Source of the DNA: Aquibium oceanicum
Lineage (GTDB): Bacteria > Pseudomonadota > Alphaproteobacteria > Rhizobiales > Rhizobiaceae
Reading direction: 5' to 3'
Assembly: GCF_001889605.1 (NCBI RefSeq)
Contig: NZ_CP018171.1
Location: 124,001-188,000, forward strand
Length of the DNA stretch: 64,000 nucleotides
The notes under the pieces were generated by a model, which saw only the letters and a program-made list of their open reading frames with translations, was not told the origin of the DNA and searched no databases. Numbering within the stretch: position 1 is the first letter of the stretch; each line of letters begins with the position of its first letter. The position numbers and the translations under genes are program-made. Shown one piece after another: positions 1 through 4,778 of this stretch.

Positions 1-96
1 AATTCCGCCAGCGAACAAGGGAGGCAGGTTGGAGAACAGACAAACAGGTCATTGCCTGCTCATATTTCGTTTGGGCATCCCAGGATGGAGACAGGT

Positions 97-1056
97 ATGT
101 TCTCAGAATGGATAATCCGCCAACCCATCAACAGCATGCCGATCTTGATGAAGAAGCCACTTCACCGGGATTGCTTCGTCGTCTTCACGAACAAGGGAGC
201 ACCCCATAGCGTTGCCCCGGTGTCAAATGGATTCGTGGAAGCGCAGGCCAAAAGTTTCTTCTGCGACGGCGCGATCGGAATTGCAAAGGAACTTAGCTAT
301 AATGGCCACATCTCTGGGGAACTAAGCTCTTCTGACGGGATCCCGATCGCTATTGGATTCCACGCACACTTCCTTACCATCGGAAATAAGGAAGAGCCCA
401 TCCTCGAAATCGCACGCGAAAGCCAAACCATTATGGCCAACCTTTCCAGTGCCATGGACCGCAGCGTGCGAAGATACATCACGCAGACACGGTTCGATGA
501 CCTAACGAATAACACTATAATCGACCGCCATGAAGATGGAATCCGGGCGCTGCTTACTGAACCACTAAGGATGTTGCGCACCGTAGAGCTGCATCGTTTC
601 ACGTTAACTGAGCTTCAATCCGGAACTCCATCTGTAAAGTCTCAGTCCATGATGGAGTTCGAGAAGAGAAGGCGGAGTGTTGAGGAGGAAGAGGCCGAAC
701 GGCTCCGCTCAATACGGCTAGCCCAAGAACGTCAAATGCTTGAAATAGGGCAAGAAGCACGCCTCTCCGAGGCCGAAGTTGAAGCTGCCGTTATCAGCGT
801 TCGTGCGGAGGCGATGCGGAAATCGGGGGAATATTCACTCTCGCAAGATCAGATATTTGAGATTTTCCGCGATCGCCTGAAATATGAAGCTCGAGTTGAG
901 GTTGCCAAGCAGGGACGTGAGCAATGGATTGCGGTAGGTGCTTTAGGCATGCTGGATAGGATCGGCCTCGGTGACTCTAGAGTACGTGTTCTCGAAGAAA
1001 AGCTCTTGAGATCAGGCGATAAAGATGAGGAAGACGACGAACGCGAAGCGTTCTGA
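97..1056 (+). CDS. SPFH/band-7-like protein with C-terminal coiled coil, first gene of a kinase/phosphatase cassette
   Basis: About 319 residues. The N-terminal two thirds read like an SPFH (stomatin/prohibitin/flotillin) fold: a strand-rich start, a central S-x-DGIPIAIGFHAHF segment like the family's 'DG-V-V' strand, a helix with RRYITQTRFDDL, and a GI-ALLTEPLRMLRTVELHRF stretch. A Glu/Arg/Ala-rich helix follows (about residues 185-245) that should form a coiled coil, as after SPFH domains. No transmembrane segment or signal peptide is visible, so it may act as a soluble or peripheral scaffold. The ATG at 97 is chosen because GGAG lies 6 nt upstream; an ATG at 85 and a TTG at 52 are alternatives. 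The VWA gene overlaps its 3' end. Base composition is AT-richer than the core genes. The SPFH assignment is by eye; its role in the cassette is inference. Confidence 0.6.
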   Translation: MFSEWIIRQPINSMPILMKKPLHRDCFVVFTNKGAPHSVAPVSNGFVEAQAKSFFCDGAIGIAKELSYNGHISGELSSSDGIPIAIGFHAHFLTIGNKEEPILEIARESQTIMANLSSAMDRSVRRYITQTRFDDLTNNTIIDRHEDGIRALLTEPLRMLRTVELHRFTLTELQSGTPSVKSQSMMEFEKRRRSVEEEEAERLRSIRLAQERQMLEIGQEARLSEAEVEAAVISVRAEAMRKSGEYSLSQDQIFEIFRDRLKYEARVEVAKQGREQWIAVGALGMLDRIGLGDSRVRVLEEKLLRSGDKDEEDDEREAF

Positions 1057-1780
1057 CACCTCACTGTACGACGGTTTTGCAATGGTAATCAAAGTAGAAC
1101 GGCCTACTGCGGCTCAGCGGCCAAATACCCGTGCCGATATAGTTTTCTGTATCGATGCGACAACCTCTATGAAGCCATGCTTCGAGGCGCTTGTCGCTAA
1201 TTTAGACACGTTCATCGCTTCCTTACAAACTGAAGCGAGCGTTGATATTCGGCTTCGGCTGGTCGGATTTCGTGACTTGCACGACCCGACTTGCGAATAT
1301 GGCTGGGACATTCATGAATTCACGGAGAACGTCGCCCAGTTTCGGTCACAACTCAGCAAATTGGAGGCAAAATGCGGGCAGAAATCTAGGGGCGCCGAGA
1401 GTTCTCTGGATGCACTTTTTTTCGCCATACATTCTGACTGGCGGAAAAGCAAAACTCATCGAACAATAATATTGATAACCGACGACGATGCATACGACAA
1501 ACTGCATGCATCACTTTATAATAGGCCAGACAACGGGGTAGAGAGAGTTATACAAGACATTCAGGAGATGAGGCATTCGATGCTTTTCATGGTGTGCCCC
1601 CGTTTTGCTATATATCGGCGAATTGCGGACTCCATGGTTTCGGCAGACCGGAAAATCGCCGCCGTTTGGGTTTCCAATAAGGATGGTGAGACCTATCAGG
1701 AACTAGCGAATTTAAACTGGGCTTCTTTGCTAAAGATGCTAGGCCAGTCGATATCCAAAACAAGCATTACGGTTACATAA
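1025..1780 (+). CDS. von Willebrand factor A domain protein (TerY-like)
   Basis: 251 residues, almost entirely one VWA domain. A metal-ion-dependent adhesion site is visible: D44-x-T46-x-S48 in FCIDATTSM, the GFRD strand at 81-84, a G-AESS-DAL helix near 123-131 and the ITDDDAY strand near 151-157. The related TerY proteins are the metal-binding partners of a PP2C phosphatase and a Ser/Thr kinase, and exactly those two genes follow here. There is no C-terminal zinc ribbon, so it is shorter than many TerY proteins. The chosen ATG overlaps the upstream gene by 32 bases. A second ATG at 1082 would avoid the overlap and leave the domain intact, but has no clear ribosome-binding site. Likely cytoplasmic. 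Substrate and partner are unknown. Confidence 0.8.
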   Translation: MRKTTNAKRSDTSLYDGFAMVIKVERPTAAQRPNTRADIVFCIDATTSMKPCFEALVANLDTFIASLQTEASVDIRLRLVGFRDLHDPTCEYGWDIHEFTENVAQFRSQLSKLEAKCGQKSRGAESSLDALFFAIHSDWRKSKTHRTIILITDDDAYDKLHASLYNRPDNGVERVIQDIQEMRHSMLFMVCPRFAIYRRIADSMVSADRKIAAVWVSNKDGETYQELANLNWASLLKMLGQSISKTSITVT

Positions 1781-1789
1781 GGAAAATGG

Positions 1790-2548
1790 ATGTTGCGCTG
1801 GGTTACCGCCTCCTTCAGCCACACCGGAACGAGAGAATGCAATGATGACGCGGTCTGTGTGCGAAGAATAACCGCGACGAAGCGGCGGTATGGGTTGTTA
1901 ATCGTGGCCGATGGAGTTGGATCCATTGCCGGGAGTGGTCAGCTCGCGAGGAGAATCTGCGATATTGTCCCCACTTTCGTAGAAAAATATTTACTGTCCC
2001 GCTATACCAAGCGAGACATTGCGCCGGGTGAAATCGCGGACCTCGCTCATGCAATAAAGATGGGACTAAATAATACAGATAACCTCGAAATGTTATGCAG
2101 TACCTTTGCTTGTGCGATCGTAGGCAGAAGAACGGTAGCTATATATTGGGCGGGTGATAGTCGAATCTACGCATTATACGAAGATGGTAGAGTATTACAG
2201 GCTTCTGAAGACGACGTTGACATAAATGGAGCGCTGACACGTTACGTAAAAGGGGACGTCGGTGTTGTAGGGAATCTAAACGGAAGAATTATTACAGCAG
2301 ATCATTTGCAACTTATTGCTGTTGCTACAGATGGTGTTTATCAGTCTTGCACAAAACAAGAGCTAACGTCTTTTTTATTATATCTGGCTTCGAATCCCGA
2401 CATTCTTAAAAAGCACTTGGCATCAGATTTCGAGGCTTTCGCTGGTGGAAACATAAGCGACAATGCTACTATGGCGGTTTTGGCCAGTCCCAAGCATACG
2501 TTGCGCGTCAAGAGGGCCGCTCATGCACGTCTGCGACAGTTGCTATGA
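1790..2548 (+). CDS. PP2C-family Ser/Thr protein phosphatase
   Basis: 252 residues forming one PPM/PP2C domain with its metal-binding and catalytic motifs: ECNDDAV (D19/D20), VADGVGS (D41-G42), the CSTF segment (S104-T105), WAGDSRIY (GDSR 122-125), VATDG (D181-G182) and SDNAT (D224-N225). All acidic metal ligands appear to be present, so it should be active. It is expected to remove phosphates placed by the kinase encoded immediately downstream, probably on the kinase itself, the VWA protein or the SPFH-like protein (inference). An AAGGAA ribosome-binding site overlaps the stop codon of the VWA gene and supports the ATG at 1790. The stop overlaps the kinase start (ATGA at 2545-2548), so the two are translationally coupled. 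Several AT-rich codons mark it as unlike the GC-rich core genes. Confidence 0.9.
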   Translation: MLRWVTASFSHTGTRECNDDAVCVRRITATKRRYGLLIVADGVGSIAGSGQLARRICDIVPTFVEKYLLSRYTKRDIAPGEIADLAHAIKMGLNNTDNLEMLCSTFACAIVGRRTVAIYWAGDSRIYALYEDGRVLQASEDDVDINGALTRYVKGDVGVVGNLNGRIITADHLQLIAVATDGVYQSCTKQELTSFLLYLASNPDILKKHLASDFEAFAGGNISDNATMAVLASPKHTLRVKRAAHARLRQLL

Positions 2549-3846
2549 ACATTTTGCGTCCCGGCCAAGTCATACACGACACAGTTAGGATTCTTGATTT
2601 CCATGGAGGCGGAGGTCAGTCTTTCACCTACATCGGCGAGTACATCGACGCCGGGGTTCCGCAGTGGAAGAAACGTGTCTTCATCAAGCAATACAACGAC
2701 TTAATCGAAGGCACAGAAGATTACAGCCGAGTTGCAGGTCACTATCAGATGATGCGCGGCCGACTGGCGGAGAAGGCGCACTACCTTTGTCTACCCGATT
2801 ACATCGCGCCCTTCGAAGGAGCGATAGTAGCACTCTATCCTTATCTTGAGGGCAAGAGCCTTGGAGACTGGATGGCAACTGGTCTCTCGTCGGAGTTGGC
2901 CACGAGGTTCGCATTCGGACTTACGACAGCCGTGCGAGCACTGCACGACGCGGGTATAGCGCATCTCGATCTCAAACCGGACAATGTAATAATTGAGCAG
3001 AACCTGAAGTCGCGAAAGTTCTTCGTCCATCTGATCGACGTTGATGCGGCGGTGATAGATGGAAAGGGGCTTCGTGAATTTCTGTATGGTTCAGCTGGGT
3101 ACATGTCTCCTGAACATGCGTCCAAAGCTAGGAGGCATTTGATCGGCCCACCATCAGATATCTATACGTTAGGGATAATGCTGTCGGAACTACTGATCCA
3201 GCGCTACCCATTCCCTGCATTCGCTGAAGGCGAGGATGTCATCAAGCAGCGCCCGGCTATTCCGGACAATGTTCTTGATAAGCGGCTGACGGAAACGGTT
3301 CGGAGGTGCTTCTGCTTGGACCCGCTCCAACGTCCCCGAGCAGCTGACATTCTTCGTTCTCTGAATGAGAGCCCGGTGCTGAAGACGTACCGCGCGCATA
3401 AAGTTGCTTCTCCCAAAGCCCAACCGCCAGATAAATACGAGAGGGCGGGTGGTGCGAAACTGCCCGACAAGCGGACTGTGCCCAAGCTCGGCCGCCAACC
3501 CGATACCAGTCCCCAGACGAGGGTCCGTTTCAGACAGCAACAGTTTGACCACAGCTATTATTCGAGTGGTACACTTACACGACGAAATTTTGTAGGCAGT
3601 AGCGTTAACAGTAAGGATCAAGGGGGAGAATTATTGTGTATAACCCTGGCGATCGAGGGCAAAAACGTCTACATCCAGAACAGGTCGGAGGGGATTACCA
3701 TTGCGGTCGGGTATCCGGGTGCACTTCGGAATCTACAAAGAAGCGAGTCCAGTGAGATATACAGCGGATATATACTAGAGATAGGCGGCTCCGGTGAGCC
3801 ATTATCAATGAGGAAAGTGCATCGGATTCAGATAGAGATCGACTAG
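2545..3846 (+). CDS. Ser/Thr protein kinase with FHA-like C-terminal domain
   Basis: 433 residues. The kinase domain spans about 10-275: glycine-rich loop GGGGQSFTY (21-29), catalytic lysine in VFIKQY (K48), catalytic loop HLDLKPDN (140-147, D142), APE-like YMSPEH (E190), SDIYTLGI helix (204-211) and the late arginine R263. The usual DFG metal motif is DVD (165-167), keeping the metal-binding Asp but losing Phe and Gly. A charged, probably disordered linker (about 275-340) leads to a strand-rich tail (about 345-433) with L-RRNFVG, VYIQNRSEG and SGYILEIGG. This resembles a degenerate FHA phosphothreonine-binding domain. No transmembrane helix is visible. Its start overlaps the phosphatase stop by 4 bases, and it is the last gene of the cassette. 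Kinase assignment is firm; the FHA-like tail is tentative. Confidence 0.88.
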   Translation: MNILRPGQVIHDTVRILDFHGGGGQSFTYIGEYIDAGVPQWKKRVFIKQYNDLIEGTEDYSRVAGHYQMMRGRLAEKAHYLCLPDYIAPFEGAIVALYPYLEGKSLGDWMATGLSSELATRFAFGLTTAVRALHDAGIAHLDLKPDNVIIEQNLKSRKFFVHLIDVDAAVIDGKGLREFLYGSAGYMSPEHASKARRHLIGPPSDIYTLGIMLSELLIQRYPFPAFAEGEDVIKQRPAIPDNVLDKRLTETVRRCFCLDPLQRPRAADILRSLNESPVLKTYRAHKVASPKAQPPDKYERAGGAKLPDKRTVPKLGRQPDTSPQTRVRFRQQQFDHSYYSSGTLTRRNFVGSSVNSKDQGGELLCITLAIEGKNVYIQNRSEGITIAVGYPGALRNLQRSESSEIYSGYILEIGGSGEPLSMRKVHRIQIEID

Positions 3847-4637: not shown

Positions 4638-4640
4638 TCC
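4527..4640 (+). repeat. direct repeats TGGTTATCTCC and TCGGTACAC next to the attachment site
   Basis: TGGTTATCTCC occurs at 4527-4537 and 4630-4640, the second copy abutting the tRNA-like end. CCCTCAG also appears beside both copies. Between them TCGGTACAC is repeated at 4555-4563 and 4568-4576, a 13-bp period. Closely spaced GGTACAC-type repeats next to a tRNA 3' end resemble arm-type binding sites of tyrosine integrases of the P4 type (inference). Confidence 0.5.
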
Positions 4641-4655
4641 CCCTCAGCTCCACCA
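4638..4655 (+). other. putative attachment site (attR): tRNA 3'-end fragment
   Basis: TCCCCCTCAGCTCCACCA reads exactly like the last 18 nt of a tRNA: T-stem 3' strand, the acceptor strand CAGCTCC, discriminator A and an encoded CCA. The upstream T-loop and the rest of a tRNA are absent, so this is a fragment. Elements that integrate at tRNA 3' ends leave the intact tRNA at one end and such a fragment at the other. DNA to the left is AT-richer with the kinase cassette; DNA to the right is typical core sequence. The intact tRNA would then lie upstream of the window. An alanine-type acceptor stem is plausible. Confidence 0.6.
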
Positions 4656-4778
4656 ACGGCGGTATCTCCATTCAGAGCGGGCACCGATGTCTTTTTGATG
4701 GCTGTCTCTGCGGGATCGGTTTCCGTCCCGCGCGCTGTCCGCCCATCCACCTTCCGCCACGGGGAGCAAGGGGCGGCG

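Follow-up and report, generated by a model that had tools for sequence, protein, structure and literature searches.

In the 64,000-nucleotide stretch of Aquibium oceanicum DNA analyzed here (the window, G000:C1:124001-188000), genes for a VWA-domain protein, a PP2C-type phosphatase and a Ser/Thr protein kinase are adjacent and co-oriented, as in the TerY-P triad, and are preceded by a fourth gene that we call gene 1. Established here are the genes of the switch, the tight run that they form with gene 1, the island that carries them and its defense-type neighbors. As an explanation, we tentatively favor a TerY-P-like switch joined in one operon to a HEPN-type coiled-coil partner and carried as defense cargo on an island at a tRNA-Ala gene. 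Triads of this kind are known; the novelty lies in the compact form with an orphan partner, together with an exchange of phosphatases among the relatives.

The triad and the island that carries it

Pfam recognized all three switch proteins (best E-values of 6.3e-07 for VWA, 2.1e-13 for PP2C_2 and 1e-20 for Pkinase), in agreement with a sequence-only reading that had proposed a kinase and its opposing phosphatase. The same reading described four tightly packed genes. The 9-base gap between the VWA and PP2C genes and the 4-base overlap between the PP2C and kinase genes hold, but the 32-base overlap of gene 1 with the VWA gene holds only if the latter starts at ATG 1025: a second in-frame ATG at 1082, which agrees with the length of the closest relative, gives a 25-base gap. 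All four reading frames are open. Gene 1 itself is longer than had been assumed. Its frame is open to the first base of the window and starts 279 bases upstream of it in the genome; the ATG at window position 97, taken earlier as the start, is internal (residue 126), and the version beginning there lacked the 125 N-terminal residues.

The motifs NDDA, VADGVG, ATDG and SDNAT, which we take to be the PP2C metal-site motifs, were all found by eye in the phosphatase. Residues K48, H140, D142, D165 and D167 of the kinase are invariant across 15 aligned kinases, in all of which DxD replaces DFG. An FHA domain had been assumed in the kinase tail. Pfam found none in P0002, compared with nine of 14 chosen relatives' kinases that have one, and the hhalign score of the tail was at shuffle level (reached by 6 of 40 shuffles), so an FHA tail could not be demonstrated in this kinase. 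The kinase tails of the two loci closest to the window by their VWA protein, L016 and L017, beat 40 of 40 shuffles against FHA, although their hhalign probabilities are low (2.6 and 3.7). The single cysteine after residue 319 of P0002 does not fit a C-terminal zinc ribbon.

The claim of an intact MIDAS in the VWA protein held in part. The motifs DATTSM (DxTxS) and, later, TDD are present, but CGQKSRGAESS takes the place of the GG[DE]xxE found in 85 of 102 relatives. Because this motif is absent, the metal site may be altered. The strict pattern fails in 17 of the 102 relatives, eight of which still hold GG[DE]. Two-VWA loci (L018, L019, L020, L021, L030, L033, L036, L038 and L043) have one copy without the strict motif and one with it.

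The window PP2C gave a weak partial match to the PADLOC candidate PDC-M21C (E 3.7e-05, from this gene alone). Seven VWA and PP2C proteins from relatives and E. coli had no PADLOC match at E <= 0.01, and the silence of PADLOC on the window VWA is therefore uninformative.

The cassette had been described as AT-rich and as lying at the end of a putative island, and both points were confirmed. On the left, a tRNA-Ala(CGC) gene is followed by a phage-type integrase gene, and a 26-base repeat comprising the last 18 bases of the tRNA gene plus eight more recurs exactly in the window (Table 1), with 19.3 kb between the copies. The GC content is 0.505 for the cassette and 0.568 for the island, as against 0.655 and 0.664 for the left and right flanks. 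Other cargo includes a DUF3800 gene, a serine resolvase, a transposase gene immediately upstream of gene 1 that seems to be frameshifted, and a sacsin/NOV protein that fits the PADLOC TmtA models (best E 1.5e-70). Judged from the tRNA gene, the integrase, the repeat, the low GC content and the neighboring genes, the region is a mobile island that has integrated here and carries defense-type cargo. An empty integration site was sought in the genus and none was resolved. The TmtA-like sacsin/NOV gene adjoins a gene for a UvrD helicase-PD-(D/E)XK nuclease fusion on the same island, outside the window.

Table 1. Coordinates of the cassette, the regions of gene 1 and the island features.
Feature	Position	Strand	Remarks
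Gene 1 (P0001), 3' part	window 1..1056	+	whole gene C1:123722-125056, 444 aa
Gene 1, N-terminal region	residues ~1-102		HEPN-like helical bundle (predicted)
Gene 1, middle region	residues ~108-300		fold unassigned
Gene 1, C-terminal region	residues ~309-413		long predicted helices (low confidence)
VWA-domain protein	window 1025..1780	+	251 aa from ATG 1025, or 232 aa from ATG 1082
PP2C-type phosphatase	window 1790..2548	+	252 aa; ORF and Pfam
Ser/Thr protein kinase (P0002)	window 2545..3846	+	433 aa; ORF and Pfam
tRNA-Ala(CGC)	C1:109253-109328		phage-type integrase gene next
Left attachment repeat	C1:109311-109336		26 bases
Right attachment repeat	window 4638..4663	+	exact copy of left repeat
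TmtA-like gene and UvrD-nuclease fusion	C1:112735-118847	minus	same island, outside window

Gene 1 and its predicted N-terminal domain

Gene 1 was modeled from its single sequence with AlphaFold2, and the model is usable only at about residues 5-96 (pLDDT in ten-residue means of 51-78 over residues 1-100, and 38 over the whole protein). This only usable fold lies in the part of gene 1 that the window lacks. VIA-align, with which 616 chains from the Foldseek ranking were re-examined, placed members of the HEPN superfamily in the top 11 positions (2hsb, 1wwp, 6m6u, 7bxo, 7ae9, 6tug, 6m6w, 1ufb, 7ae8, 3c8g and 6kcr), with Z-scores of 9.1 to 6.9, 88-104 residues aligned and rmsd of 2.7-4.8. Two of these chains, 6tug and 1ufb, we take to be HEPN proteins; the other nine were assigned from their titles or from PMC3710099. 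The catalytic motif of HEPN domains has been placed where helix 3 ends (PMC3710099), and in gene 1 the sequence R55-AAYA-H60, with the pattern Rx4H, ends the predicted helix 3 (residues 42-59); the pattern occurs twice more, at 109 and 286. HEPN is the best lead for the modeled N-terminus, and a weakly supported one.

Gene 1 had previously been read as an SPFH-like scaffold. An SPFH-like run can be seen by eye in its middle, and low-confidence models show strands followed by helices, with long helices in the whole protein. On the other hand, Band_7 matched seven genes of the genome above its cut-off, and one more below it, but had no match in gene 1 at E <= 10. A profile of the seven Band_7 proteins scored 13.5 in hhalign against residues 108-312 and 16.7 against the whole protein, scores that also arise when the region is shuffled (30 shuffles, mean 12.8, maximum 17.8), whereas the Band_7 proteins left out in turn scored 86-217 in six of seven cases; the seventh (L106) fails as a positive control, probably owing to a wrongly chosen frame. 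Residues 108-312 modeled alone reached a pLDDT of 33 (low confidence), with no match at Z >= 5. The membrane association proposed for the system found no backing either: none of the four proteins has a hydrophobic segment, the best 19-residue mean being 1.24.

Relatives of gene 1 were sought widely. PDB sequences gave no match at E <= 1. No relative was found by a pattern search of genome_contigs with the shorter protein version as query, by tblastn against plasmids (shorter and whole protein) and phages, or in viral_contigs. In 297 genomes of the family (shorter version) and 385 of the class, samples of larger groups for which distant kin may escape the loose first look, only its own copy appeared at E <= 0.001, and at E <= 0.1 there was no relative in the genomes of six relatives and one plasmid record. 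The ORFs of the 88 loci described below also held no relative, with five chance matches at E 2-3.6. A kinship of the N-terminus with the RNRIAH-motif neighbor gene of L016 was tested and not borne out, 225 of 2000 shuffles reaching its score. That neighbor gene matched Pfam HEPN_RiboL-PSP at E 0.06, under the cut-off.

Relatives of the triad and known systems

VWA relatives were collected from plasmids (8 of 13 records used) and genome contigs (best 80 of 123), giving 88 loci (L008-L095). L061, a duplicate of L013, was dropped, which left 87 distinct loci; several contigs end within the locus. A kinase is found in the stretch at 80 of the 87; of the other seven, six have the VWA gene alone and one pairs it with PP2C. 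Among the 80 VWA-kinase loci, 40 carry PP2C, counted like the kinases with iterated profiles grown on the same loci (the PP2C profile misses a PP2C-like gene seen by eye at L017:2418-4013), 29 carry a PPP-type phosphatase, 11 neither and none both; L009, L010, L018 and L037 illustrate the alternatives. The PPP-type call was based on GDxHG...GNH[DE] within 400 bases, which we take to be the motif of PPP-type phosphatases, and the 29 loci come from the widened pattern, a tighter one giving 6. Such a swap suggests that what is conserved is the need for an enzyme to counter the kinase, of whichever type. The idea of one system was said to fall if the four genes rarely occurred together; that rarity applies to gene 1, but not to the VWA-kinase pair, which PP2C accompanies in half of its loci. 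Rhizobium and Microvirga loci combine VWA, a kinase (FHA-tailed in part), a PPP phosphatase and a zinc-ribbon membrane protein, the last recognized by eye.

In the tree, the window VWA is nearest to that of the Pirellulaceae locus L016 (42-43% identity, support 99/98), and next to that of the Desulfuromonadaceae locus L017, with less firm support (94/59). The branch of the window VWA is long, as a tool warning pointed out, and the tree was built without L008, L012, L041, L061, L073 and matches lacking the DxSxS start. Only its own genome was returned when the VWA was searched in 398 genomes of the phylum (E <= 1e-10) and 327 of the order (E <= 1e-18), and in the phyla of the two relatives the seed genome was the sole match (343 and 198 genomes, E <= 1e-12); these samples were drawn from larger groups and the loose first look may miss distant kin. 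In viral_contigs there was no VWA match.

L016 and L017 each contain a kinase gene, and in each a further gene immediately precedes the VWA gene; neither has a relative of gene 1. L016 differs further from the window in having no PP2C in its 7.1 kb and in the presence of a DO-GTPase2 gene. The region 5' of its VWA gene (L016:55-3455) holds this gene, a likely membrane protein (by eye) and the RNRIAH-motif protein; an FHA-like tail seen by eye in the L016 neighbor gene beats 40 of 40 shuffles, by 0.1. In L017 the triad is intact and a gene for a NERD (nuclease-related) protein lies directly 5' of the VWA gene, in the same slot as gene 1. An FHA-like tail seen by eye in this NERD gene was rejected, scoring below 32 of 40 shuffles. 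The long co-oriented run around it (L017:2418-14205, from a metagenome-assembled genome) comprises the triad and the NERD gene along with genes for a coiled-coil-like protein and a TraG/HerA-type ATPase that resembles mad8; a second PP2C-like gene and a radical-SAM-like one were recognized there by eye.

The anti-phage role of TerY-P is established (PMC7699616, PMC10889362), with activity listed for Autographiviridae (PMC10889362). The descriptions consulted give its components as a kinase, a phosphatase and a protein that binds metal, and name no effector. The resemblance of the window genes to it is borne out: VWA, PP2C and a Ser/Thr kinase are adjacent with Pfam support and lie on a mobile island by defense-type genes, and the known triads likewise occur in islands and defense settings and do not need Ter genes (PMC7699616, PMC11090510). 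TerD (PF02342) was indeed missing from the whole genome at E <= 0.01, in a search that did not extend to other Ter families and whose control matched in 2 of 14 genomes. The absence of Ter genes is, however, not the peculiarity it had been taken for, as TerY-P was published as an anti-phage system and E. coli K-12 has a triad without annotated Ter genes. The window cassette differs from TerY-P in its extra orphan first gene and in its kinase tail, which has no zinc ribbon, unlike the C-terminal one of the CoCoNuT form; the kinase of the stand-alone anti-phage form has a C-terminal OB fold. Type II and III-A CoCoNuTs join TerY-P to the HEPN-bearing CnuE (PMC11090510), and are thus a precedent for TerY-P plus HEPN in larger systems.

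The yegL-pphC-yegI genes of E. coli K-12 encode the same three domains, with a 4-base overlap of yegL and pphC and no Ter gene annotated in 12 kb. They differ in the opposite-strand yegJ between pphC and yegI, in the length of YegI (648 aa) and in the absence of gene 1. The sequence relation of the window VWA to YegL is visible only with the family profile (E 4.6e-4, as against 0.097 for the direct comparison, both in a three-protein set). GAP1-N2 DO-GTPase conflict systems of the third theme (PMC7159879) also have a kinase, a PP2C and a stand-alone VWA in neighboring genes, but a Pfam scan of seven ORFs of the island found no GTPase. Among the titles and abstract openings listed in literature searches, in a collection lacking most subscription papers, none describes the combination seen here.

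Proposed mechanism, alternatives and meaning

In the explanation that we favor, gene 1 would be a fast-evolving partner protein whose phosphorylation state is set by the kinase and PP2C. The phosphorylated substrate may be gene 1 itself, or a phage or host target, and PP2C would reset it. The VWA protein would couple a trigger to the balance of kinase and phosphatase. Once released, the partner would act on RNA through its HEPN domain and stop phage growth, and its long C-terminal helices may drive partner assembly.

Several results weigh against this explanation. The link between gene 1 and the triad rests on one genome, with a gene 1 that has no detectable relative and no Pfam match at E <= 10. 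Foldseek returned nothing for its model at E <= 0.001, and the HEPN Z-scores, obtained with a single-sequence model, are below the value of about 13 that helical bundles reach without kinship. R55 and H60 were placed as the putative HEPN site by motif and predicted helix, and the residue after R55, typically polar in HEPN RNases (PMC3710099), is Ala. The altered VWA motif could mean decay. A co-directed ORF of at least 150 aa lies directly 5' of the VWA gene in 13 of the 57 VWA-first loci with enough upstream sequence and is lacking in 44, with 20 non-VWA-first and three short loci set aside (L017 is among the 20, owing to a weak kinase-like frame far upstream). This count lowers the probability of our explanation, as it does that of exchangeable 5' partners discussed below, and raises that of a triad working by itself.

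The leading alternative, only somewhat less probable than the explanation above, is that the triad works by itself, like TerY-P, and that gene 1 is a sensor, a scaffold or an RNA-binding accessory without RNase activity. TerY-P protects PAO1, with most infected cells surviving and some dying (PMC10889362), and this survival gives no pointer to a suicidal RNase. The K-12 triad has no gene-1-like neighbor annotated in its 12 kb, and RNA binding without cleavage is probable for some HEPN domains (PMC3710099). On the other hand, gene 1 is the first gene of a tight operon, and the corresponding slot in the second-closest relative is filled by the NERD gene.

A broader proposal is a defense chassis with a VWA-kinase core, a slot for either of two unrelated phosphatases (PP2C or PPP-type) and, in the lineage of the window, exchangeable 5' partners, in which phosphorylation would directly arm nuclease effectors. 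The partners in question would be the HEPN-like coiled-coil protein of the window and the nuclease-related NERD protein of its relative. With the count of 5' ORFs given above, we consider this proposal unlikely.

It is improbable that the cassette is an island passenger that is decaying or has a housekeeping stress role, without a function in defense. The apparently frameshifted transposase just upstream, the missing loop motif of the VWA protein and the rarity of close VWA relatives would fit such a passenger, but the four frames are open and the catalytic residues of kinase and phosphatase are kept. Least probable of all, given the Band_7 comparisons and the lack of a membrane segment, is an SPFH scaffold that is associated with the membrane, controlled by phosphorylation and active in stress or defense.

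If gene 1 is the effector of the TerY-P-like switch, the four-gene cassette would make it testable which protein is phosphorylated, and whether that phosphorylation arms an RNase.

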